NCBI GenBank assembly: GCA_002715485.1
Contig: PAZL01000055.1
Coordinates: 1-34,420 of the forward strand
Origin: Aequorivita sp.
GTDB taxonomy: Bacteria; Bacteroidota; Bacteroidia; Flavobacteriales; Flavobacteriaceae
Length of the DNA: 34,420 nucleotides
Direction of reading: 5' to 3'
Positions 1 to 28,579 of this stretch are shown in pieces. A model generated the notes under the pieces. It did not search any database. It worked only from the letters and a program-made list of their open reading frames with translations, and had not been told where the DNA came from. Position 1 is the first letter of the stretch. Every line of letters begins with the position of its first letter. The position numbers and the translations under genes are program-made.

Positions 1-901
1 AAATGACCGCGGAAATCTCTCCCGACCCGGTGTTGCAAAGGTTTACGACTATCGACATTATGTTACCAATGAAATGAAGGATTTTCTTTCGGGAGAGATT
101 TCCGCAGAAATTGAAGAAATCCTTTTAATAGGGATCCATCACGAAAAACAGCATCAGGAACTTCTGGTTACAGATATAAAATACATCCTAGGAAATAACC
201 CGCTCTTGCCGAGATACAACGACTCCTTTTCAGAAAATACAAGTCAGAGTTTTCAACAGAAATGGATTGAAATGAGGGAAGGTGTTTATGAAATAGGCCA
301 CAACAATACCAATGAATTCTGTTATGATAATGAATTGGGAAGACACAAAGTATATCTTCAGAATTATAAAATTTCAAACAAGCTAATTACCAATGCCGAA
401 TACCTTGAATTCATTGAAGCTGGTGGGTATAAAGATTTCAACCTTTGGCATGCAGAAGGTTGGGATTGGGTAAAACAAAACCAAATTGAAGCCCCAATGT
501 ACTGGCACAGCATTGATAGGGAATGGCACCAATACACCATGCAGGGGTTACAGAAGTTAACTGCAGAAGCGCCCGTTTCACATATTTCTTATTACGAAGC
601 GTTCGCCTTTGCACAGTGGAAAGATTGCCGTCTGCCCACTGAATTTGAATGGGAAGCAGCTCAAGAAAATTTTGAATGGGGCAACCGTTGGGAATGGACT
701 GAGAGCGCGTACCTGCCCTACCCAGGTTACACCAAAGCTCCCGGCGCCATTGGCGAGTACAACGGAAAATTTATGGTAAACCAAAAAGTTTTGCGAGGCG
801 GTTCCGTGGCAACTTCTTCAAAACATACACGACCTACTTACAGAAATTTTTTTCAGACCAATCTGCGGTGGCAATTCACTGGATTAAGGTTGGCGAAATA
901 A
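1..901 (+). CDS. egtB: Ergothioneine biosynthesis sulfoxide synthase EgtB, 5' end outside window
   Basis: The frame is already open at base 2 and ends with TAA at 899-901, giving 299 visible residues; roughly the first 80-90 residues of a usual EgtB are missing. EgtB is a non-haem iron enzyme that joins hercynine to a cysteine-containing thiol using oxygen. The visible part starts in the DinB-like four-helix domain: an RGNLSRP stretch (residues 4-10) and the iron-site motif HEKQHQE with His47 and His51 (numbered from base 2). An FGE-sulfatase-like C-type lectin fold follows, with LPTEFEWEAA and, near the end, RGGSVAT and the TGLRLAK terminus. The first iron histidine lies upstream of the window. 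egtD follows after 16 bases, so the two form an operon. No egtC or egtA is visible, so the thiol donor (cysteine or gamma-glutamylcysteine) cannot be decided here. The internal ATG at 74 is not the true start. Confidence 0.93.
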   Translation, partial: NDRGNLSRPGVAKVYDYRHYVTNEMKDFLSGEISAEIEEILLIGIHHEKQHQELLVTDIKYILGNNPLLPRYNDSFSENTSQSFQQKWIEMREGVYEIGHNNTNEFCYDNELGRHKVYLQNYKISNKLITNAEYLEFIEAGGYKDFNLWHAEGWDWVKQNQIEAPMYWHSIDREWHQYTMQGLQKLTAEAPVSHISYYEAFAFAQWKDCRLPTEFEWEAAQENFEWGNRWEWTESAYLPYPGYTKAPGAIGEYNGKFMVNQKVLRGGSVATSSKHTRPTYRNFFQTNLRWQFTGLRLAK

Positions 902-917
902 TAACGACTACCCCTCT

Positions 918-1889
918 ATGGCAACAACTACCGCAACCCAATTGGACACTACTTTTAAAAAAGAAGTTTTTGAAGGACTCAACACTTTTCCCAAATATTT
1001 ATCGTCAAAATATTTCTATGATAAAAAAGGTGACAAGCTTTTTCAGGATATTATGGCGATGCCTGAATATTATCTTACAGGATGCGAATTTCAAATAATT
1101 TCATCTCATACCGAGACTATTGGAGAGCTTTTCCGCGACCGAGAAAATGGGTTGGATTTAATTGAACTTGGTGCTGGAGATGGAAAAAAAACAAAAGTTC
1201 TACTAAAATATATGGCAGAAAATAACTTCAATTTTATTTACAAGCCCATTGACATTAGTGAGAATGCTGTGCAAATGCTTTCAAATAATCTCGCCGAAGA
1301 AATGCCCGCTTTAAATGTAGATGCAGAAGTGGGAGAATATTTTGAAGTTCTGGAAAGATTGAAAGGTTTTAATAAACGCAAAAAGGTAATAATGGTTCTG
1401 GGCAGTAATATCGGAAACCTAAAACATCCAAAGGCAATTGAATTTCTCACTCAATTAAAAAATGTAATGCTTCCGGATGATCTGCTATTCATGGGTTTTG
1501 ACCAAAAAAAGAATCCACAAAGCATACTAGACGCTTACAATGACAAATCGGGAATTACAGCGGCTTTCAACAAGAATATTTTAACCCGAATAAATCGTGA
1601 GCTTGAAGGAAATTTTGATGTTGAGAAATTCACTCATTGGGAATCCTACAATCCCGAGACTGGCACTGCCAAAAGTTTTTTGGTGGCTAACGAAGCTATG
1701 CAAGTAACTATCGAAAAGTTAAAGTTAACTGTAAACTTTGATCAATGGGAAACTATCCACACTGAAATTTCTCAAAAATACGATGATAAAACAGTGCAGT
1801 GGCTTGCTGAAAAATCTGGGCTCGAAATTGAAACATCCTTCACTGATGAAAAAGGGTATTATAAAAATTATGCCTTCAGAAAATTGTAA
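918..1889 (+). CDS. egtD: L-histidine N-alpha-methyltransferase EgtD
   Basis: EgtD trimethylates histidine with S-adenosylmethionine to make hercynine, the substrate of EgtB encoded just upstream. The 323-residue product has the usual length. Visible features are an N-terminal segment ending in YYLTGCEF (51-58), the SAM-binding loop LIELGAGDGKKT (81-92), the GSNIGN segment (162-167) and IHTEISQKY (280-288). In the studied mycobacterial enzyme a Glu and a Ser two residues apart in this last segment contact the substrate; here they are Glu283 and Ser285. The ATG at 918 is the first good start after the egtB stop. Another ATG at 868 is in a different frame inside egtB and was not used. The gene ends 64 bases before the convergent class V PLP gene, with no clear hairpin between them. 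Confidence 0.94.
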   Translation: MATTTATQLDTTFKKEVFEGLNTFPKYLSSKYFYDKKGDKLFQDIMAMPEYYLTGCEFQIISSHTETIGELFRDRENGLDLIELGAGDGKKTKVLLKYMAENNFNFIYKPIDISENAVQMLSNNLAEEMPALNVDAEVGEYFEVLERLKGFNKRKKVIMVLGSNIGNLKHPKAIEFLTQLKNVMLPDDLLFMGFDQKKNPQSILDAYNDKSGITAAFNKNILTRINRELEGNFDVEKFTHWESYNPETGTAKSFLVANEAMQVTIEKLKLTVNFDQWETIHTEISQKYDDKTVQWLAEKSGLEIETSFTDEKGYYKNYAFRKL

Positions 1890-11398: not shown

Positions 11399-11620
11399 AT
11401 GAGAAAACTGTTTATTGCATTAGCGCTAGTTTCATTAGCCTTTGGTTCATGCCGGGAGAAAAAGACTGAAACCAAAGAAGTAATCCGAGAGGTAGAAGTT
11501 GAAGTAGAGCCAGAAACCCAAGAAAATGAGGGAATTCTTGAAAGGACCGCAAAAGAGGTGGATAAAGAGGTAAATGAAGAAATTGACAAGAAAATTGAGG
11601 ACATCGGTAATGATGATTAA
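11399..11620 (+). CDS. Small acidic lipoprotein 1 (SCR lipobox)
   Basis: A 73-residue protein with a short lipoprotein signal peptide (MRKLFIALALVSLAFGSC, lipid-modified Cys18) followed by Arg-Glu-Lys-Lys and a highly charged tail dominated by Glu, Lys and Val (EVIREVEVEVEPE). The tail lacks hydrophobic core residues and probably forms a helix or stays disordered. I know no family name. It is the first of three in tandem; the next starts 25 bases after its stop. All copies share a lipobox that ends Ser-Cys-Arg-(Glu/Asp), so they are paralogues with diverged tails. Confidence 0.75.
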   Translation: MRKLFIALALVSLAFGSCREKKTETKEVIREVEVEVEPETQENEGILERTAKEVDKEVNEEIDKKIEDIGNDD

Positions 11621-11645: not shown

Positions 11646-11897
11646 ATGAAAAAGCTAATATTAAGTCTCGCACTGGTAGTTGCATTTGGCACAAGTTTTA
11701 TTTCTTGCCGTGAAAATAAAAAAGCCGACGATGTTGAAGATGTAGTTGATGATGTTAATGATGCTATGGAAGATGCAGAAGATGAAGTTAAAGATATGAC
11801 AGACGATGATGCTACAGATCCCGTAGAAAATACTATTCAAGAAGGTGTAAACGAAATTCAAGAAAATACCGGTACCGGTGGAACAGATGATATTTAA
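11646..11897 (+). CDS. Small acidic lipoprotein 2 (SCR lipobox)
   Basis: An 83-residue lipoprotein: signal MKKLILSLALVVAFGTSFISC with lipid-modified Cys21, then Arg-Glu-Asn-Lys-Lys. The mature tail is extremely acidic and repetitive (DDVEDVVDDVNDAMEDAEDE), with Ala/Val/Met every three or four residues, which suggests an amphipathic helix or a metal/cation-binding tail. Its leader (GAATTAACT-like, then AAAACCAAATATT) resembles the leader of the next gene, in keeping with tandem duplication. No function is known to me. Confidence 0.78.
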   Translation: MKKLILSLALVVAFGTSFISCRENKKADDVEDVVDDVNDAMEDAEDEVKDMTDDDATDPVENTIQEGVNEIQENTGTGGTDDI

Positions 11898-11942: not shown

Positions 11943-12194
11943 ATGAAAAAAGTAGCATTATTTATTTTAAGTGCAGCATTTATTTCTGCAAGTTTCACTT
12001 CTTGTCGTGAAAACAAAGAAGAAGTAACCGAAGAAGAAGCAATCATCCAGGAAATGCAGGATGAAGGCGCCGATGTAAAAATCAAAGAAGACGGTGGGGA
12101 CACTAAAATTAAAATGGAAACCGACGAAAAAGAAGTAAAAATTAAAAAAGATGAAGATGGGGATACTAAAATAAAAGTTGACGAAAATAATTAA
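11943..12194 (+). CDS. Small lipoprotein 3 with internal 20-residue repeat
   Basis: An 83-residue lipoprotein with signal MKKVALFILSAAFISASFTSC (Cys21), then Arg-Glu-Asn-Lys. Its tail differs from its neighbours: after an acidic segment it holds two copies of a unit of about 20 residues, each beginning VKIK and containing DTKIK (VKIKEDGGDTKIKMETDEKE, then VKIKKDEDGDTKIK). The alternating Lys/Ile pattern suggests beta-strands rather than a helix. A terminator follows 18 bases after the stop, so the tandem trio ends here. Confidence 0.78.
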   Translation: MKKVALFILSAAFISASFTSCRENKEEVTEEEAIIQEMQDEGADVKIKEDGGDTKIKMETDEKEVKIKKDEDGDTKIKVDENN

Positions 12195-12212: not shown

Positions 12213-12242
12213 AAAAAACCGACTGTTTCAGTCGGTTTTTTT
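12213..12242. terminator. Bidirectional terminator overlapping the end of the repressor gene
   Basis: Stem CCGACTG (12219-12225) and CAGTCGG (12229-12235) with a TTT loop, an A-run on the left and a T-run on the right. It ends the lipoprotein transcript. On the minus strand it also covers the last codons and stop (12228-12230) of the convergent repressor gene. Confidence 0.88.
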
Positions 12243-13010
12243 ATTTACAGTATCTCTCATTTGAGTTTTAAGCTCTTCCATAGATTGTTGAAGCTGACGG
12301 AGCAAATTACTTTCGGAGGGTTCATCAACCCCAAACGTTAATTTGCTATTAACCATCCAAAGCTCTTGAATATCTTTAACTTTCACATCTATTGGCAAAT
12401 ATTCTGTATTCAACGAAATGAGCCGAATACTCTGTGGGTTATTAGGAATTTTCTGAAGCTTTTTCACTAAAACTGAATCCCTCAAAACTACTATATAAAT
12501 TTTACTGTCCGTTGCTTCAAGTATGCTTGGCACCGCACGCCCTAAAACCCATTCATTCGGTTTAATATTTGGCAGCATACTGTCCCCCTCTACTTGAAAG
12601 CCGCGATAAGATGCGTTTCTATATTCAGGTAAAGGAATATTGAAAGCTGGTAAGGTTTGGTACCAACCCGTATCATGAATATTGTTTGGATAACCAGCCG
12701 CAGCTTTCTGGTTTACAAGAAGAATACTGTCATTACCGGTGGTGTCAATAGTTAAAACTTTCGGACTTACGCCACCACGCGAAGTATCTATATGCTTTTC
12801 AAAACTTTTGCCATAAATCCATAAGGGATTGATATTAAATTGGGACATAAGTTCCATAATAACCTTTCCCGTTATTTTGGTCTTGCCTCTTTCAATATCA
12901 GCTGTAGTGGCACCAATATCTAATACTTCAGCAAATGATTGCTGAGTATAATTGAGTTCTTCACGCAGTTTTTTAAAACGTTGCGCTTCAATAGGTAGCT
13001 GTGTTTTCAT
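12228..13010 (-). CDS. LexA-like repressor: HTH domain plus S24 self-cleaving peptidase
   Basis: A 260-residue regulator. An N-terminal XRE-type helix-turn-helix (about 8-65, with RFKKLREELNYTQQSFAEVL) is joined to a C-terminal S24/LexA-like domain. The features needed for self-cleavage are all present: the Ala105-Gly106 bond in KAAAGY, Ser144 in VEGDSMLPNI, and a lysine at 183/184 in VLVKKLQK, with LexA-like spacing. A short helical tail ends the protein. The frame is open to 13247, but those 79 extra codons run through the operator region and into the divergent gene, so the ATG at 13008-13010 is the start. It is divergent from the radical SAM/TIGR03915 pair, and the gap holds repeated TCCAAA/TTTGGA dyads, so it probably represses itself and that pair until DNA damage. 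No RecA-dependence is proven here. Confidence 0.88.
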   Translation of the reverse strand: MKTQLPIEAQRFKKLREELNYTQQSFAEVLDIGATTADIERGKTKITGKVIMELMSQFNINPLWIYGKSFEKHIDTSRGGVSPKVLTIDTTGNDSILLVNQKAAAGYPNNIHDTGWYQTLPAFNIPLPEYRNASYRGFQVEGDSMLPNIKPNEWVLGRAVPSILEATDSKIYIVVLRDSVLVKKLQKIPNNPQSIRLISLNTEYLPIDVKVKDIQELWMVNSKLTFGVDEPSESNLLRQLQQSMEELKTQMRDTVNKKTD

Positions 13011-13075
13011 ATCCAAATATATAATTTTTTGGAAAATATCCAAATATTTTTTTGGATTATATCCATAAAGTGTGG
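13010..13075. promoter_or_regulatory. Cluster of TCCAAA/TTTGGA operator dyads
   Basis: Two identical 11-mers TATCCAAATAT at 13010-13020 and 13037-13047 are 27 bases apart. Each is followed by an inverted half: TCCAAA (13012-13017) with TTTGGA (13028-13033), and ATCCAAA (13038-13044) with TTTGGAT (13051-13057). A weaker third dyad, TCCA...TGGA, follows at 13062-13075. They cover the putative repressor promoter and end shortly before the divergent gene's -7 element, as expected for repressor binding sites. Confidence 0.7.
13014..13021 (-). promoter_or_regulatory. Putative -7 element of the repressor gene
   Basis: Read on the minus strand this is TATATTTG, an exact TAnnTTTG match. It overlaps the first operator repeat and lies only three bases before the ATG, so a transcript from it would be nearly leaderless. 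An overlap of operator and promoter would explain autorepression. It could instead be just the operator sequence. Confidence 0.4.
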
Positions 13076-13085
13076 AATATTTCCT

Positions 13086-13093
13086 TATTTTTG
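13086..13093 (+). promoter_or_regulatory. Putative -7 element of the radical SAM operon
   Basis: TATTTTTG matches TAnnTTTG and ends 20 bases before the ATG at 13114. It lies 11 bases to the right of the last operator dyad, so a bound repressor would block polymerase access upstream of it. No standard -33 TTG at the usual spacing is seen. Confidence 0.5.
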
Positions 13094-13113
13094 GCAATAC
13101 TCCAAATTTTGCT

Positions 13114-14397
13114 ATGGATTTTAATCGAATTAACGAAAAACTAAGCATTTTAGCCGATGCCGCAAAATATGATGTTTCCTGTTCCTCAAGCGGAAGTAAA
13201 AGACAGAATAAAAGCAATGGACTTGGCAATAGTAGCGGTATGGGCATCTGCCATAGTTATACTGAAGATGGTAGATGTGTTTCGTTATTAAAAATTTTAC
13301 TTACCAATCATTGCATTTTTGATTGCGCTTACTGCGTTACGCGAAAAAGCAATGATATAAAGCGTGCCGCTTTTAAAGTACAAGAAGTTGTGGACTTAAC
13401 AATAAATTTTTACAGACGAAATTACATTGAGGGCCTTTTTTTGAGCAGCGGAATTTTCAAAAATGCAGATTATACAATGGAACGCTTGATAGCCGTGGCA
13501 AAAAAGTTGCGTGAGGAAGAATATTTCAATGGATACATTCACCTAAAATCCATTCCAGGTGCAAGTGATGAATTAATGCGGGAAGCTGGCCTATATGCAG
13601 ATCGTCTTTCCGTAAATATTGAAATTCCCACAGAAAAAGGTTTGAAATTACTAGCACCGGACAAAAACAGAAAAGATTTTATAAAACCTATGGAAAAGGT
13701 GAAGAATGAAATCATTCAATATAAAAATGAAAAAAGCCTCTTAAAAAAAGTTCCGCTCTATGCCCCGGCGGGGCAAAGCACCCAAATGATTGTAGGCGCC
13801 AGTGGGGAAAGCGACGCTGAAATAATGTACACTTCCGCCTTTTTTTATAAATCATTTAATCTTAAAAGGGTTTATTACTCCGGCTACGTTCCCATAAGCC
13901 ATGACAATCGCTTACCTTCCATCGGCACTGCGGTTCCGCTTTTACGTGAAAATAGACTTTACCAAACAGATTGGCTCCTTCGGTTTTATGGTTTTGATGT
14001 TCGCGAATTGCTTAATACGGAGCACCCTAACTTAGAATCAGACATTGATCCAAAACTAAGCTGGGCCCTCCGAAATTTAGACCAATTTCCTGTAAATATA
14101 AATAAGGCAGATATGCGAATGCTACTTCGAGTGCCGGGTTTGGGAGTTAAATCAGTTCATAAAATTATAGCTGCACGCAAGTATCGAAAACTTAACTGGG
14201 AAAATCTTAAATTAATTGGCGCTTCCTTAAATAGGGCAAAATATTTTATAACCTGTGATTCCAGAACTTTTGAAAGAAAAGATAGAACAGCCGCACAATT
14301 AAAAGGATTGATAATAAATGGCTCCAAAAGCAAATTCAGAAATGAATTAAATACTCAGCTAAATTTGTTTGATCATCAAAATTTTCAGCCTACATGA
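13114..14397 (+). CDS. Radical SAM DNA modification/repair protein (TIGR03916 type)
   Basis: A 427-residue radical SAM enzyme. The cluster motif is CIFDCAYC (Cys67, Cys71, Cys74, spacing CX3CX2C), preceded by conserved-looking cysteines 23, 46 and 55 in YDVSCSSSGS and CHSYTEDGRC. The C-terminal part (about 327-372) contains helix-hairpin-helix sequence VNINKADMRMLLRVPGLGVK, a non-specific DNA-binding element. This domain order and the partner gene fit the family named putative DNA modification/repair radical SAM protein. Its reaction is unknown to me. The start at 13114 was chosen over the in-frame 13072 because the latter is upstream of the predicted promoter and MDFNRINEKLSILADAAKYD is the family-like start. 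It overlaps the next gene by four bases. Confidence 0.9.
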   Translation: MDFNRINEKLSILADAAKYDVSCSSSGSKRQNKSNGLGNSSGMGICHSYTEDGRCVSLLKILLTNHCIFDCAYCVTRKSNDIKRAAFKVQEVVDLTINFYRRNYIEGLFLSSGIFKNADYTMERLIAVAKKLREEEYFNGYIHLKSIPGASDELMREAGLYADRLSVNIEIPTEKGLKLLAPDKNRKDFIKPMEKVKNEIIQYKNEKSLLKKVPLYAPAGQSTQMIVGASGESDAEIMYTSAFFYKSFNLKRVYYSGYVPISHDNRLPSIGTAVPLLRENRLYQTDWLLRFYGFDVRELLNTEHPNLESDIDPKLSWALRNLDQFPVNINKADMRMLLRVPGLGVKSVHKIIAARKYRKLNWENLKLIGASLNRAKYFITCDSRTFERKDRTAAQLKGLIINGSKSKFRNELNTQLNLFDHQNFQPT

Positions 14398-15161
14398 ATA
14401 CTATTTTGATTTATGACGGGAGTTTTGACGGGCTTCTTTCTGCTATTTTTAATGTTTTTGAGTTGAGGTTGACAAATGTTTGCATTAAAAGACGAGAATA
14501 CTCCCAACAAAATTTCTTTGATGCTGAAGAAGAGATTATAACGGATACTGAAAAAGCAAAGCGGGTATGGATGGGGCTTTCAAAAAAAATTTCGCAACAA
14601 GAGAGACAAAAAATTTACAAAGTTTTTTTAAGTGAAATCCCAACAATTGAAAATGCTATATTACACTTTATAAAACGCACTTTTTCTTCTGAAGTATCTA
14701 TTGAAAATGATTACAGCGACCCCATTATTCTTGAAATAGACAAGGTTTCAAAAAAGGTAGATCGCAAAAAGCACAGGATGGACGCCTTCGTACGCTTTCG
14801 ATTAACTAACGATGGCATTTATTTTGCGACCATTGAACCAGATTTTAATGTTTTACCCTTAAATTCGGAACATTTTAAAAAAAGATATGCAGACCAAAAA
14901 TGGTTAATTTATGACCTGAAGCGCAAGTATGGTATTTATTACAATCTTCAAAATGTAGCGATAGTTGAACTGGAAATTTCATCAGAAGTGAACAGCTCAA
15001 CAAAGGCTCTTACGTATTTTACTGTTGATGAAATAAATTTTCAGGAACTTTGGCGCATTTACTTTAAAAACAGCAATATACCTTCCCGAAAGAATATGCG
15101 TTTGCATATAAAACATATTCCAAAAAGGTATTGGAAATATTTACCCGAAAAAAGGTTTTGA
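14394..15161 (+). CDS. TIGR03915-type putative DNA repair/metabolism protein, partner of the radical SAM gene
   Basis: A 255-residue cytoplasmic protein starting within the stop of the radical SAM gene (ATGA at 14394-14397), so they are translationally coupled. It begins ILIYDGSFDGLLSAIF. The diagnostic central part has KKHRMDAFVRFRL, EPDFNVLPLNSEHFKKRY and WLIYDLKRKYGIYYN. In other bacteria this family is regularly found beside the TIGR03916 radical SAM protein, and sometimes beside or fused to a uracil-DNA-glycosylase domain. No glycosylase domain follows here, so this copy is the stand-alone form. Catalytic residues are not established; the HRMDAFVRF and PDFNVLP blocks are the best candidates. 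A role in repair of a specific DNA lesion is inferred from context. Confidence 0.88.
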   Translation: MNTILIYDGSFDGLLSAIFNVFELRLTNVCIKRREYSQQNFFDAEEEIITDTEKAKRVWMGLSKKISQQERQKIYKVFLSEIPTIENAILHFIKRTFSSEVSIENDYSDPIILEIDKVSKKVDRKKHRMDAFVRFRLTNDGIYFATIEPDFNVLPLNSEHFKKRYADQKWLIYDLKRKYGIYYNLQNVAIVELEISSEVNSSTKALTYFTVDEINFQELWRIYFKNSNIPSRKNMRLHIKHIPKRYWKYLPEKRF

Positions 15162-15213: not shown

Positions 15214-15456
15214 ATGAAAAAATTATTTTTATCACTTGCCGCTCTTGCATTGGTTGCTTCAGTTTACTCTTGCAGAGATACTAAAACTGAGGAAAACACA
15301 GAAGAGACTGCTGAAACTATGATGGACAACGCTGAGGAGTCTATGGAAGAAGCTTCTGACGCTGTTGAAGAAGCTGCTGAGGAAACTGGCGACGCTATGG
15401 AGAAAGCTGCTGATGACACTGAAGAAGCTGTAAAAGACGCTACTGACGGTCAATAA
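15214..15456 (+). CDS. Small acidic lipoprotein 4 (SCR lipobox), helical repeat tail
   Basis: An 80-residue lipoprotein: signal MKKLFLSLAALALVASVYSC with Cys20, then Arg-Asp-Thr-Lys. The mature tail is a run of Ala/Glu/Asp/Met with a regular spacing of Ala pairs (EEASDAVEEAAEETGDAMEK), typical of a long, highly acidic amphipathic helix. It is clearly related to lipoproteins 1-3 through its signal and SCR motif, but is separated from them by the repressor-radical SAM island. A strong terminator follows. The function is unknown; it could be a periplasmic or outer-membrane stress or cation-binding lipoprotein. Confidence 0.8.
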   Translation: MKKLFLSLAALALVASVYSCRDTKTEENTEETAETMMDNAEESMEEASDAVEEAAEETGDAMEKAADDTEEAVKDATDGQ

Positions 15457-16303: not shown

Positions 16304-18919
16304 TTATTTTTTCAATTTAATGGAAGCATTCCGCTGCAACATGCGCCGAATTTCATTTAATTTCATCAGTGCTTCCACAGGCGTAAGTGTATCTATATCA
16401 ATATCCAAAATCTCTTCGCGCAGCTCTTCCAACAGGGGATCGTCCAGTTTAAAAAAACTCAATTGCATCTCTTCTTTAGAAACAGCCTTCATTTCTTCTG
16501 TCAGTTCTTCGGAAGCGTGGCTTTTTTCAAGCCTTTTCAAAATTTTATTTGCGCGTTGAAGCACGGCTTGCGGCATTCCAGCCATTTTTGCAACGTGGAT
16601 TCCAAAACTGTGATGGCTGCCTCCGGGAACCAACTTGCGAAGAAAAAGCACGTTATCCTTCAATTCCTTTACCGAAACATTATAGTTCTTTATCCGAGGA
16701 AAAGTTTCCGTCATCTCATTCAACTCGTGATAATGGGTTGCAAAGAGTGTTTTACCGCGGGAAGGATGTTCGTGCAAATATTCACTGATGGCCCAAGCAA
16801 TGGAAATTCCGTCATATGTACTTGTTCCACGACCTATTTCATCCAAAAGAATCAAACTTCGTTCCGATAAATTATTCAAAATACTCGCTGTTTCATTCAT
16901 CTCAACCATAAATGTAGATTCGCCCATCGAAATATTATCGCTTGCCCCTACTCGAGTAAAAATCTTATCCACGCAACCCATTCGTACTGCTGTAGCGGGC
17001 ACAAAACTACCCATCTGTGCCAAAAGCACTATTAATGCCGTTTGCCGAAGAATGGCCGATTTACCACTCATATTAGGCCCAGTGATCATAATAATTTGCT
17101 GGTTTTCCCTATCGAGGAAGACATCGTTTGCTATATAGGGGGCGTCGGGCGGAAGTTGTTTTTCAATTACCGGATGGCGGCCTTCCTTTATATCCAAATC
17201 GAAAGTATCATCTAGCAATGGCCGTGTGTAATTGGATTCTTTGGCCTGGGTGGCGAAAGAGCAAAGGCAATCCAACTGTGCAATCAAGGCTGCATTTTGC
17301 TGAACGGAACCTATAAACTGAAGCATCCATTCAACCAGTTTTGCGAAAATTTCCTGCTCTAATACTAAAATTTTTTCCTCGGCACCAAGAATTTTAGTTT
17401 CGTATTCCTTTAATTCTTCCGTGATATATCTTTCGGCGCTTACAAGGGTTTGCTTTCTAATCCATTCCGGCGGAACCTTATCTTTGTGGGTGTTTCGAAC
17501 TTCTATGTAATATCCAAAAACATTATTTGACGCAATTTTAAGTGAAGAAATCCCGGTGCACCTAGTTTCGCGCTCTAGCATTTCATCCAAATATTCCTTT
17601 CCGTTGGCTGAAATATTTCGCAATTCGTCCAGAGTTTCTGAAAAACCCTCGGCGATTGAATTTCCTTTCAGAATATTTACCGGAGCTTCCTCAAAAAGTG
17701 TTTCTTTTATTTTATTACGAAGCAATTCCAAATCGTGCAATTGCTCGCCAATAATTTTAAGCGATTCATTTTTGGAGTGCAACGCCAAAACTTTTATTGG
17801 GACAACTGCTTCCAAAGAATTTTTAAGTTGGATAACCTCTCGCGGATTCACTTTGCCCGTTGCCACTTTTGAAATCAATCGTTCCAAATCGCCGATGCGT
17901 TTGGTGTATTGTTGGATTTTTTCTAGAGTAATCGGGTTGTCGAGCAAAAAGCTTACAACTTCGTGACGGCGGTTTATTTTTTCAACATTTTTCAAAGGAA
18001 GCGCCATCCAACGTTTCAAAAGCCGCCCGCCCATTGGCGAAATGGTTTTGTCAATAACATCCAAAAGCGTAACCGCGTTCTGCTGATTGGAATGGTACAA
18101 TTCCAAATTGCGAATGGTGAAGCGGTCCATCCAAACGTATTCATCTTCTGCAATACGCGCTAATTTTGAAATATGCTGTAATTTGGTATGCCGTGTTTCA
18201 CTTAAATAATGAAGCGCGGCGCCAGCAGCGATAATGCCCTCTTCCAAATGATCCACGCCAAAACCTTTTAGGTTTTTTACAGCGAAATGTTTCGTGAGCG
18301 TTTCAAAAGCATAATCGTTTTGAAAAATCCAATCTTCCAAATGGAAAACGTGATAATTATTCCCGAATGTTTCAGCAAAAAGCTTTCGTTTCTGCTTTGA
18401 GAAAAGCACTTCCGAAGGATTAAAATTTTGAAGTAATTTATCTACATATTCTGCAGGCCCTTCAGAAACCAAAAACTCTCCCGTGGAAACATCCAAAAAA
18501 GAAACGCCCAAAGTCTTGGAACCAAAATGAATCGCTGCTAAAAAGTTATTTGATTTTGATTGTAAAATATCATCATTAAAAGCAACCCCTGGCGTAACAA
18601 GTTCGGTAACACCACGCTTTACAATGGTTTTAGTCATTTTTGGATCTTCCAACTGATCGCAAATTGCCACACGGCAACCAGCCATAACCAGTTTTGGCAA
18701 ATAGGTATTCAAGGAATGGTGCGGAAAACCGGCAAGCTCCGTTCTATCTCCGCCATTGTTTCGATGGGTAAGCGTAATGTTTAAAATACCTGCTGCACGC
18801 ACGGCATCTTCACCAAAAGTTTCGTAAAAATCTCCCACGCGAAAAAGCAGCAAAGCATCGGGATACTTAGCTTTTATAGTATTGTACTGCTTCATTAACG
18901 GGGTTTCCTTCTTCGCCAT
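16304..18919 (-). CDS. mutS: DNA mismatch repair protein MutS
   Basis: MutS binds mismatched DNA as a dimer and uses ATP to start repair. The 871-residue product has the full domain order: mismatch-binding domain I with [10 protein letters not shown] (Phe31, Glu33), connector, core with FGYYIEV, then the ABC-type ATPase with Walker A GPNMSGKS (614-621), Walker [13 protein letters not shown] (Asp693, Glu694), and FATHYHEL. The phenylalanine and glutamate that read the mismatch are intact, so this is the repair MutS1 type rather than MutS2. The start [12 protein letters not shown] is the usual one; the stop is close to the tRNA-Gly. The SpoU-type methyltransferase is divergent, with 132 bases between the two starts. 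Confidence 0.98.
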
Positions 18920-25226: not shown

Positions 25227-25333
25227 AGATTTCAATGAAAATTTAGACCATAGTATATGCCTCCAGAAAATAAATTGTATCTTTCATTACCATATCCCCG
25301 GACTTATTTTATTTTTTGAAATATTACTCGATT

Positions 25334-28300
25334 ATGGCATCTAAAAACCGGAGATTCTCTTTAGTTATTCAATTGTTTTTCCTTTTTACATTTTTCCTTG
25401 GATTTTCACAGGAAAAAAACACTGCCGTAAAGAAAATTCAAACCCTTATTGAACAAGATTCCTTGGCAGAGGCACGAACGGAAGTGGCTAAAAATATAGC
25501 TTTCTATAAAGCAGAAAAGAATTACGACAGTTTGTATTCTTACATTCAGTTTGAAGGAAGTTTTAAATTGAACAACGGCAATAAAAATCTGGCTGTAAAA
25601 AAAGCCGAAAAGCTTACAGAAGAAATTAAAAAGTATGCCAACCCACATTATGTGGTTGAAGCAATAACCGAACTTGGGTGGATTTATGATGATGCGGGGA
25701 AGCACCAAGAGGCATACAATCTTCTTAATACCGCAATTCCATTTGCACAAAAAAACACCAAACCCAATAATACCGATCTTGCAAGCCTAGAATACCGTCA
25801 AGGTTTTTACGCTTCAAAACTTGGCGATTTTCCCTTGGCAAAATCACATTACCTCAAAGCACTAAAAATGTTGATAAAAACTGGGCAGCCGGACTATGTT
25901 TTTTACAATCAAGTATACAACGCCCTCGGCGGAATGATGTGGCAGGAAGCAAAACTGGATAGTACCAAATATTATTTCCAGGAAGCCGTGAAGGTTTTGG
26001 AAAAAACAGATGAGACTGATATTATGAACCGATTTTATCGTCCCGCATTAGTAAAAATGAACCTTGCCGTGCTGTGGAATGCTTTGGGAAAAAACCAAGA
26101 AGCCATAGCCATTTCAGAAGAATCAATCGCAGGTTTTCAAGAATACATAAACCGCTCCACAGATGAAGCAAGAACTTATAAGGCTAGAAACCACCAATGT
26201 GTTGTTATAGACAATATGGCTGCCTTTTATAATACTTTGGGAGAATATTCCCGCTCCCAGGAACTAATTGAATATTCCTTTCAGCAAAAGAAAAAACTTT
26301 TTGATGAAAATGATATAAACATTATCATTTCAAACATCATTCTTGCAGAGGCCAAAACAGCCAGCCGCGATTTTGAAGGTGCCGCCAAAAATGCCGACAC
26401 CGCCTTGCTACTTTTAAAAAGTAGTGGTAGTGCAGATTTGTATTGGGAAGCAGCAGCACTTTCCACCCGGGCCACTATTTATGAACACGCAGAAGATATA
26501 GAAAACGCAGCCTTATATTATGAAAAGGCAAGAATAGTCTATCAAAAAACTATGGGCAACACCTATACAAAAGATTTTTTAGACAATATTTTGGAATATT
26601 CCCTATTTGCCGCTAAAAATGGCAAAAAGGAAAAAGCGCTTGCCTTAGCTAATGAAACCTATAATTTTACCCACAACGGAGATTTCAAAAATACCCTGCA
26701 GGAGTTTTATCATACAACAAACCTAGCTCAAGTTCATTACCTTTTAAAAAATTATAGGGAAGCAGAAAGATTTAGCGATGAAGCACTGCGTTTCAATATT
26801 TTGGGTGAGAATGGAAAAATAAGTACTACAGATTCCATTCTTAGCCAATACAGAAAGCCCCAAGCTTTGTTGATAAATGCAGCTTCAAAATACTATCTGG
26901 CAGAAAACAAAAACCCTTTTCTTTTAAAAGAGCTTTTACAACAAATTGAAGAAGGAATATCGATTCTAGACCAACGAAAAAAAATAATCACCAACCACGA
27001 AGACGTAACACTCTTAATAACCGAAAATGAGGAACTTTTAAATTTTGCCGAAAAGTTAAGATTGGAACTTTATCAGACCACCAAAGACCCACAGTATTTA
27101 GACAAGTTAATCGCCTTGCATGAATCCAGTATATACAACCGTATACGCTCACGGTTGAACCTTAGGGACAATGTGCGGTTCAAGCACATTCCACAAGAGA
27201 TATTAGCGCGTGAAAACATTTTGAAAAACAAAATGAAGTCTTCTTTAAATGATTCTGAAAACAGTAGTCTTTCTTCATTTTTTGAAGCTTCTGATAACTG
27301 GGAAAACTTTCTGGATTCGTTAAAACAAAATTTTCCCAAATATTTTAAAATGCGCTATGCCACTTTGGAGGAATCTTTGAATGATCTTCAGCAAAAAATT
27401 CCAGAAAATACAACAGTGGTACGCTATATTTTTATTGAAGATCAACTATATGCTTTTGTGGTTTCTCCATCGATAAAAAAAATGATGCGTTTAAATTACA
27501 AGTCGGTCAAAAACCACATTTCAAAAATAAAAAATGATGAGTTTTCCGTTGAAAAGACCAGGCCCCTACTCTATGAACTATATAGGGCGCTTTGGTTTCC
27601 TTTGGAAAAATATGTGCTTAGTCCAAAAGTAGTAATCGTGCCAGACAGAGAACTATTCAATTTAAGTTTTGAAACACTTACACCCAAGCCTATAAAGAAT
27701 TTTCAGGAAATGGCCACAAACAGCCTTTTGGCAAAATATGACATTTCATATAATTTTAGCTTGCTGCTTTATAAGGACAAAGGCAATGTAGCTGATTACT
27801 CTTCAGATTTTATTGCTTTTGCGCCAGGTTTCAACAAAAAGATGAAAGAGGAATACCAACTGGGGATAAAAGATTCCGTAAAGCTGGACAAAACTTACCT
27901 TACTCTTTTGCCGCAACCCTTCAGCGAGGAATTGGTAAAACAGTATTCCAAAATTTTCAACGGCCGTTATTTTGTGAATGAAAACGCAAGCAAGGATTTA
28001 TTTATAAACCAAGCAAAGGAGCACAAAATAATTCACATAGGCACCCACGCAGAAAGCAATAATCTAAGCCCGGAGTTAAGCCGACTTATTTTTGCAAAAA
28101 AGACCGAAGACGGAGAAAATTACGATGAAAATTCATTGTATTCCTATGAAATTTACAACATAGATCTTTCGTCAAACCTTGCCATTCTCACCGCCTGTGA
28201 AACCGGAAAACCTACCTATCAAGCAGGTGAAGGAATGATTTCATTGGCACACGCCTTTAATTATGCAGGAAGCGAAAGCATTTTGACCAGCCTTTGGGAA

Positions 28301-28579
28301 ATTGATGAAGAGTCGAGCGCTAAAATCGTAAAGTTATTTTATGATAATCTTTCCATAGGAATGCCAAAAGATGAAGCCCTGCGCCAAGCAAAGTTAAGTT
28401 ATATTGAAACAGCCGAAGGTCGTACCGCAGCCCCCCAATATTGGGCAGGACTCGTTCTTATTGGTGATACTACTCCAATAGATTTAAAAACTGGCGTGGC
28501 TTGGTGGTGGTATTTGTTGGCAGGCAGTGTGGCTTTTGTACTTTTTATATTAATAATGCAAAGCAAAAGGGAAAAGTAA
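25334..28579 (+). CDS. TPR and CHAT domain protein, signal peptide and C-terminal membrane anchor
   Basis: A 1081-residue protein: signal peptide (LVIQLFFLFTFFLGFSQ), then tetratricopeptide repeats over about 50-500 (units such as ALGKNQEAIAISEESIAGFQ), a helical linker, and a C-terminal CHAT domain (about 700-1040). CHAT is a caspase-like peptidase fold. The expected catalytic residues are present: His905 in IIHIGTHAESNN and Cys955 in LAILTACETGKP, followed by AGEGMISLAHAFNYAGS and QYWAGLVLIGD. One helix (about 1051-1075) and a KREK tail end the protein. With a signal peptide and a stop-transfer anchor, the repeats and the CHAT domain should face the periplasm. The frame starts at a TTG at 25316, but the ATG at 25334 is preferred. 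The substrate is unknown; it stops one base before the convergent mvaD. Confidence 0.9.
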   Translation: MASKNRRFSLVIQLFFLFTFFLGFSQEKNTAVKKIQTLIEQDSLAEARTEVAKNIAFYKAEKNYDSLYSYIQFEGSFKLNNGNKNLAVKKAEKLTEEIKKYANPHYVVEAITELGWIYDDAGKHQEAYNLLNTAIPFAQKNTKPNNTDLASLEYRQGFYASKLGDFPLAKSHYLKALKMLIKTGQPDYVFYNQVYNALGGMMWQEAKLDSTKYYFQEAVKVLEKTDETDIMNRFYRPALVKMNLAVLWNALGKNQEAIAISEESIAGFQEYINRSTDEARTYKARNHQCVVIDNMAAFYNTLGEYSRSQELIEYSFQQKKKLFDENDINIIISNIILAEAKTASRDFEGAAKNADTALLLLKSSGSADLYWEAAALSTRATIYEHAEDIENAALYYEKARIVYQKTMGNTYTKDFLDNILEYSLFAAKNGKKEKALALANETYNFTHNGDFKNTLQEFYHTTNLAQVHYLLKNYREAERFSDEALRFNILGENGKISTTDSILSQYRKPQALLINAASKYYLAENKNPFLLKELLQQIEEGISILDQRKKIITNHEDVTLLITENEELLNFAEKLRLELYQTTKDPQYLDKLIALHESSIYNRIRSRLNLRDNVRFKHIPQEILARENILKNKMKSSLNDSENSSLSSFFEASDNWENFLDSLKQNFPKYFKMRYATLEESLNDLQQKIPENTTVVRYIFIEDQLYAFVVSPSIKKMMRLNYKSVKNHISKIKNDEFSVEKTRPLLYELYRALWFPLEKYVLSPKVVIVPDRELFNLSFETLTPKPIKNFQEMATNSLLAKYDISYNFSLLLYKDKGNVADYSSDFIAFAPGFNKKMKEEYQLGIKDSVKLDKTYLTLLPQPFSEELVKQYSKIFNGRYFVNENASKDLFINQAKEHKIIHIGTHAESNNLSPELSRLIFAKKTEDGENYDENSLYSYEIYNIDLSSNLAILTACETGKPTYQAGEGMISLAHAFNYAGSESILTSLWEIDEESSAKIVKLFYDNLSIGMPKDEALRQAKLSYIETAEGRTAAPQYWAGLVLIGDTTPIDLKTGVAWWWYLLAGSVAFVLFILIMQSKREK

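Follow-up and report, generated by a model that had tools for sequence, protein, structure and literature searches.

The window analysed here is a 34,420-nucleotide stretch from a draft genome of Aequorivita sp. (contig PAZL01000055.1, positions 1 to 34,420), in which an S24-type repressor gene, here called lexA, is divergent from an overlapping gene pair coding for a radical S-adenosylmethionine (SAM) protein and a DUF4130 partner. The draft genome is 2.80 Mb and about 90% complete, and its closest named relative is Aequorivita aquimaris, with 95% identity in the radical SAM protein. The features of the locus are as follows.

12228–13010, minus strand: lexA (repressor), 260 residues, with HTH_3 and Peptidase_S24 domains, a predicted A105-G106 scissile bond and an S144/K183 dyad
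13014–13044, minus strand: predicted lexA promoter, TTTG-N19-TATATTTG, ending 3 bases before the lexA start codon
13031–13041, unstranded: SOS box 1, GGAAAATATCC, a GGA-N5-TCC match also seen in relatives
13054–13064, unstranded: SOS box 2, GGATTATATCC, a GGA-N5-TCC match also seen in relatives
13074–13084, unstranded: SOS box 3, GGAATATTTCC, a GGA-N5-TCC match also seen in relatives
13086–13093, directly downstream of box 3: TATTTTTG, a -7-like element of the radical SAM gene, read by eye
13114–14397, plus strand: TIGR03916 radical SAM gene, 427 residues, by profile match
13180–13278, plus strand: three extra cysteines, C23, C46 (in GICH) and C55 (in DGRC), kept in 149 of 150 distinct homologues
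13312–13335, plus strand: CX3CX2C (C67, C71, C74), kept in 150 of 150 distinct homologues
14089–14181, plus strand: helix-hairpin-helix region, residues ~326–356, Pfam score 24.2 against a cut-off of 27
14356–14370, plus strand: QLNLF, residues 415–419, a predicted beta-sliding-clamp-binding motif in a low-confidence tail
14394–15161, plus strand: TIGR03915/DUF4130 partner gene, 255 residues, by profile matches and a structure model

The three genes proposed in a first-pass annotation of this DNA are present where it placed them, as judged by open reading frames and profiles, and the coordinates agree with its description of a divergent repressor and an overlapping pair: 103 bp separate lexA from the radical SAM gene, and the DUF4130 gene overlaps the latter by 4 bases. 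We take COG4277, a family name used in the literature, to be the same family as TIGR03916.

The repressor scores 32.2 bits with HTH_3 (PF01381; cut-off 23) and 45.2 bits with Peptidase_S24 (PF00717; cut-off 23.3). Its start is the ATG at 13010 (M1 is nearly invariant among aligned orthologues) and not the longer reading frame start at 13247. Across 23 aligned orthologues A105, G106, S144 and K183 are invariant and K184 nearly so, which bears out the earlier description of an S24 repressor with every residue for RecA-type cleavage. It is the sole homologue found in the draft genome at E<=0.01. According to the part of a 2021 paper available to us (PMC8565304), phage-CI-type S24 repressors replace LexA as SOS regulators in Bacteroidetes, with a GGA-N5-TCC-binding group that is mainly in Flavobacteriaceae and for which electrophoretic mobility shift assays and mitomycin induction are reported in S. 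agarivorans. By its sequence the Aequorivita repressor fits this group of non-canonical LexA proteins, the tested member WP_075324850.1 having been compared by description only, and it is the probable master DNA-damage switch and LexA-equivalent of the genome. The likeness extends to the HTH_3 and S24 domains, the Ala-Gly and Ser-Lys residues, the boxes at its own promoter and the kinds of genes in the regulon; the difference is the divergent adjacency to the COG4277 operon, which is not mentioned in that part of PMC8565304.

All three boxes between the divergent genes match GGA-N5-TCC, a pattern that occurs 11 times across the window against 4.98 expected. Box 1 falls inside the predicted lexA promoter, overlapping its -33 element and spacer; the motif used for this prediction is one that we assume to be the relevant promoter motif. 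The same pattern with a box inside it is found in 22 of 48 lexA-adjacent relatives, against 0.28 expected by shuffling, and is absent in 26.

The genes were surveyed in three samples: 80 named relatives, which are the best of 311 relatives found with the radical SAM protein, 149 family genomes, and a phylum sample of 296. The repressor gene is divergent within 600 bases in 48 of the 80 named relatives. Each of the 48 carries a box in the gap separating the two genes, and all but one carry several; the total is 140 (47 relatives having two or more), where mononucleotide shuffling predicts 0.21 and the control pattern CCT-N5-AGG gives none. Within the family TIGR03916 is found in 33 genomes and a clear repressor orthologue (over 230 bits, the next group being under 90) in 54; 24 carry both genes, 30 only that of the repressor and nine only that of the radical SAM protein (co-occurrence odds ratio 7.6, p 2.3e-6). 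The two genes are divergent neighbours in 19 of the 33 TIGR03916 genomes, all among the 24 with both and all with at least two boxes. The divergent S24 regulator for which a neighbourhood comparison had been suggested recurs, at 48 of 80 and 19 of 33, more often than chance would give. At least two boxes lie directly before the radical SAM gene in 21 of the 24 genomes with a GGA-type lexA and in none of the nine without (Fisher p 5.7e-6), and counting the inferred operons of G010 and G111 these become 23 of 24 and none of nine (p 2.6e-7), neither value being corrected for relatedness. In G087 and G100 two boxes precede a radical SAM gene that is distant from lexA, and in G010 and G111 a boxed lexA is divergent from dinB-type and dnaE-type genes with the pair behind them, an arrangement that ties the pair directly to translesion polymerases. 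In G010 (which is also L071; G111 is L069) an SRAP-type gene, read by eye, comes first. A different kind of locus is seen in G032 (G032:C1:2991494-2993126), where the repressor gene adjoins a partial DUF4130 gene (profile positions 1–195) and the genome has no radical SAM match, apparently a decaying pair.

Tandem pairs of GGA-N5-TCC boxes occur at seven places (six loci) in the draft genome, whereas a reversed control pattern gives none. Two of the seven overlap each other in the lexA–radical SAM intergenic region, and four lie directly before apparent dinB, umuD-umuC, PA0069/COG1533-type radical SAM, and exonuclease/GIY-YIG genes; the seventh is within the apparent valS coding sequence and is probably there by chance. 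Five of the six loci either precede SOS-type genes or lie in the gap that separates lexA from the operon. The names dinB, umuDC and valS come from reading the open reading frames, exonuclease/GIY-YIG from Pfam and the COG1533 type from annotated homologues. The available part of PMC8565304 places the four gene classes either in the GGA regulon or under both motifs, and it also lists a COG1573-COG4277 operon within the GGA regulon, so damage induction, which the first-pass annotation had thought likely, is to be expected from the published family regulon. The regulatory part of this locus is a further instance of that published system. Control of the pair by the repressor, also proposed earlier, is supported by the shared boxes in this genome and its relatives, and from these sequences we consider it very likely that the repressor and the SOS response govern the radical SAM–DUF4130 operon.

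The radical SAM protein scores 674.3 bits with TIGR03916 (cut-off 343.5), and with C67, C71 and C74 in place the radical SAM assignment and its CX3CX2C motif stand. The helix-hairpin-helix described in its C-terminal part holds in that there is a Pfam match and that RuvA is matched in the PDB over residues 251–374, although the Pfam score is just below the cut-off. The single exception to the extra cysteines is a Gemmatirosa protein of 32% identity, with no DUF4130 seen in its stretch as far as it was read. The spacing of C23, C46 and C55 before the radical SAM motif presumably resembles that of lipoyl synthase, and a natural guess is that they form a possible auxiliary cluster. These cysteines and the clamp-type tail are the new parts of the system, and both were missing from the first-pass annotation, as were the three boxes.

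The partner scores 273.9 bits with TIGR03915 (cut-off 112.25) and 170.9 bits with DUF4130 (cut-off 27), and the Pfam search of this protein finds DUF4130 only and no uracil-DNA glycosylase domain, in agreement with the earlier view that this is the TIGR03915 form lacking a glycosylase. Its structure model resembles the folds of DHH proteins (RecJ and Cdc45), without sequence support: the partner differs from the DHH-DHHA1 proteins in having no DHH string on reading and no similarity to a RecJ profile, hhalign against RecJ giving a probability of 0.1, under the 0.4 of a reversed decoy. In the phylum sample 91 of the 296 genomes, counted by hand, have both profiles over cut-off, and seven have one alone (five with TIGR03915, two with TIGR03916); the pair is present in several phyla, and both families are matched in the genome of Caulobacter vibrioides. 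From this co-occurrence the two proteins probably form a complex. The literature searched has no description of the pair's biochemistry, so the statement that its chemistry is undescribed holds within that literature. In the available part of PMC3765255 DUF4130 appears as a predicted mutagenesis-related enzyme, with no mention there of the fold, the clamp tag or the Bacteroidetes LexA regulation. The COG1573-COG4277 SOS operon, as far as PMC8565304 is available to us, is alike in its box control and, on the family equivalence assumed above, in its radical SAM family; it differs in that the partner here lacks a uracil-DNA glycosylase domain, and neither a clamp-type tail nor the three cysteines are mentioned in that part of the paper.

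The pair or a part of it is also met in records labelled as phage. The sequence of the antibiotic-induced Bacteroides phage BKO1-TP1 (L195) finishes with a partial DUF4130 gene (45–563), as would be seen if its prophage lay within or next to this locus. An unverified gut phage contig (L196, 1574–3699) has a TIGR03916-like reading frame with DUF4130, and a 240-kb record named 'Acinetobacter phage MD-2021a' (L194) carries glyS and glyQ with the pair and looks like a bacterial contig.

QLNLF is the only such match within the radical SAM protein, and its conservation was surveyed in 195 extracted homologues, 150 of them distinct by their last 200 residues. A strict pattern, Q[LMI]x[LIM][FWY] in the last 25 residues, is present in 139 of the 150. 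Among 926 other reading frames of at least 180 codons at these loci it is seen in two, and shuffled tails match at a rate of 1.4%. By group it matches all 80 named relatives and all 29 family loci, 22 of the 27 phylum loci and eight of the 14 plasmid or phage records. Q415 is kept in all 150, L416 in 147, L418 in 148 and F419 in 140, and the top-residue frequencies of these four (1.00, 0.98, 0.99 and 0.93) stand out from a free middle position (0.40) and from the preceding linker (mean 0.50); the residues after the motif are not conserved. Residues 407–427 have a predicted local distance difference test score under 50, and in the model the tail carrying the motif is probably disordered. The available part of PMC3716654 gives the clamp consensus as QL[S/D]LF and reports that E. 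coli UmuC binds the beta clamp via QLNLF, the identical pentapeptide, and for the final position Phe, Leu or Ile is accepted according to the portion seen of a 2024 review (PMC11139829). A C-terminal motif, as here, is usual for beta-clamp clients, that of UmuC itself being internal, and the difference from clients such as UmuC and Pol II (QLGLF) is that the motif here, a match in sequence, sits on a radical SAM enzyme (again as far as PMC3716654 was available). Among the literature matches listed, none links a radical SAM enzyme to the clamp. We think it likely, on the strength of this conservation, that the radical SAM protein docks on the beta clamp through QLNLF. If the tag is real the enzyme works at replication forks or gaps, and radical SAM repair may belong to the clamp tool-belt. 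The window also contains mutS (16304–18919, minus strand, recognised by reading) with QLSFF near its C-terminus, as would be expected if this lineage uses the same peptide code.

A second radical SAM protein in the same genome, of the PA0069/COG1533 type (C68), ends in QMRLF. We surveyed 30 loci of this type, including its own; they are the best from the 70 genomes with a match in a set of 120. The strict pattern is matched by 27 of the 30 tails, and QxxLF stands at the C-terminus or close to it in all 30. In five homologues from proteobacteria the corresponding peptides are QLRLF, QLRLL, QGELF, QLSLL and QLTMF, two of which are strict matches. Two boxes precede the gene at 16 of 16 loci in genomes with the repressor and at none of 14 in genomes without it. 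The protein is thus like the pair in being boxed and in its C-terminal clamp-type pentapeptide, and unlike it in belonging to another radical SAM family and in having no DUF4130 in the 3-kb stretch examined.

We favour, with good confidence, an SOS-induced, clamp-tethered radical SAM repair pair under a LexA-equivalent as the best explanation of the locus as a whole. A repressor dimer on the three GGA-N5-TCC boxes would silence its own gene and the divergent radical SAM–DUF4130 operon. On DNA damage, RecA–single-stranded DNA filaments would prompt the S144/K183 dyad to cut the repressor at A105-G106, and expression of the pair alongside the translesion polymerases would follow, as can be supposed from the family and from published biology. 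The radical SAM enzyme would dock on the beta clamp via QLNLF and contact DNA via its helix-hairpin-helix, and with the DUF4130 protein it would use radical chemistry to treat a lesion, or an intermediate of repair, at gaps or where forks have stalled. We infer the induction, the clamp binding and the complex from genes, boxes, co-conservation and motif conservation that are seen directly in the sequences.

Several observations weigh against this explanation. The counts are drawn from related sequences and hence are not independent events. Thirty of the 80 named relatives have no nearby repressor (one is cut by a contig end), and 23 of these have no box within 250 bases, seven having one. Two more have a more loosely linked S24 repressor and likewise no box within 250 bases. 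One of these repressors is of the same type, 653 bases away; in the other locus (L103) the order is a more distant kind of S24 repressor, an exonuclease/GIY-YIG-type gene and the radical SAM gene. In the family, none of the nine carriers without a repressor (of 33) has a box within 250 bases, and G063 has the repressor and no box before its radical SAM gene, so the pair is not dependent on this repressor. On the radical SAM side the full promoter pattern is found in none of the 48 adjacent relatives, and no -33 element was found for the radical SAM promoter. One relative (L098) has no DUF4130 match, the only such case in the 80. Eleven of the 150 tails miss the strict pattern, six of them among the 14 plasmid or phage records; seven of the eleven are QLxLL or QISLL, one is QLQLTF, one is QLSLGF, and L193 and L196 have a similar peptide further from the end. 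Lastly, the radical SAM structure model is poor for residues 3–107 and says nothing on cysteine geometry.

The first-pass annotation regarded the repressor as dedicated to the pair and the whole as a self-contained, stand-alone damage module. In favour of such a module, 48 of the 80 closest named relatives have the repressor gene divergent from the pair with operators shared by the two. Yet 'dedicated' is wrong, and 'self-contained' is not borne out, because this repressor, the sole homologue found, has its tandem boxes before apparent dinB, umuDC, COG1533-type and exonuclease/GIY-YIG genes as well; with 30 of 54 repressor-bearing family genomes having no radical SAM gene, a regulator for the pair alone is extremely improbable, and from its operators the repressor is a global regulator. 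A uracil-DNA glycosylase base excision repair system, as the COG1573-COG4277 operon is described in the available part of PMC8565304, draws on that published naming and on alphaproteobacterial partners annotated as UdgX-family, one of which, from Phaeobacter, was tested and has DUF4130 plus a uracil-DNA glycosylase domain. It cannot hold as stated for this operon because no glycosylase domain was found in it: the partner is DUF4130 only, partners are 247–291 residues in 79 of 80 named relatives against 481 for the fused form, and the genome's sole match to the uracil-DNA glycosylase superfamily is on another contig. We judge it improbable.

A stronger contender, though still unlikely, is that the QLxLF tail has a structural role or binds some other partner, such as DUF4130, and is not a clamp motif. 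Conservation of a tail by itself names no partner, and co-occurrence with DUF4130 is almost strict; however, the motif fits the published consensus (PMC3716654, as far as available), forms an island behind a variable linker with its middle position free, and recurs at the C-terminus of a protein of another radical SAM family. That the pair acts on RNA or the nucleotide pool rather than on chromosomal DNA has in its favour the DHH-like model of DUF4130, since DHH folds include nucleotide phosphodiesterases, but the SOS boxes, helix-hairpin-helix and clamp-type tail, together with the place that the pair takes in G010 and G111, after dinB-type and dnaE-type genes, argue for DNA at the fork. We consider DNA very likely to be the substrate, and RNA or nucleotides correspondingly improbable.

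The clamp-tethered, SOS-controlled explanation may extend beyond this pair. We suggest, tentatively and as something short of an even chance, a bacterial class of SOS-controlled, clamp-tethered radical SAM repair enzymes, comprising at least two separate families, TIGR03916 and PA0069-type COG1533 proteins, with a C-terminal QLxLF, that would deliver radical chemistry on damaged DNA at the fork; TIGR03916, with C23/C46/C55 as a second iron-sulfur site and DUF4130 as a DHH/RecJ-like partner of reduced catalytic capacity, might then perform direct repair without a glycosylase step.

Either side of the SOS locus there are four small, highly charged putative lipoproteins (11399–11620, 11646–11897, 11943–12194 and 15214–15456, all plus strand), with signal peptides ending in SC-R-E/D and tails that are acidic or rich in Lys and Glu; similar small lipoproteins lie near the SOS locus in L018, L024, L027 and L032. 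Elsewhere in the window, 25316–28579 (plus strand) codes for a 1087-residue TPR and CHAT-domain protein, caspase-like, and 74–1889 (plus strand) for an FGE-sulfatase-type protein with a histidine-specific SAM methyltransferase after it, which we take to be an EgtB/EgtD-like pair.

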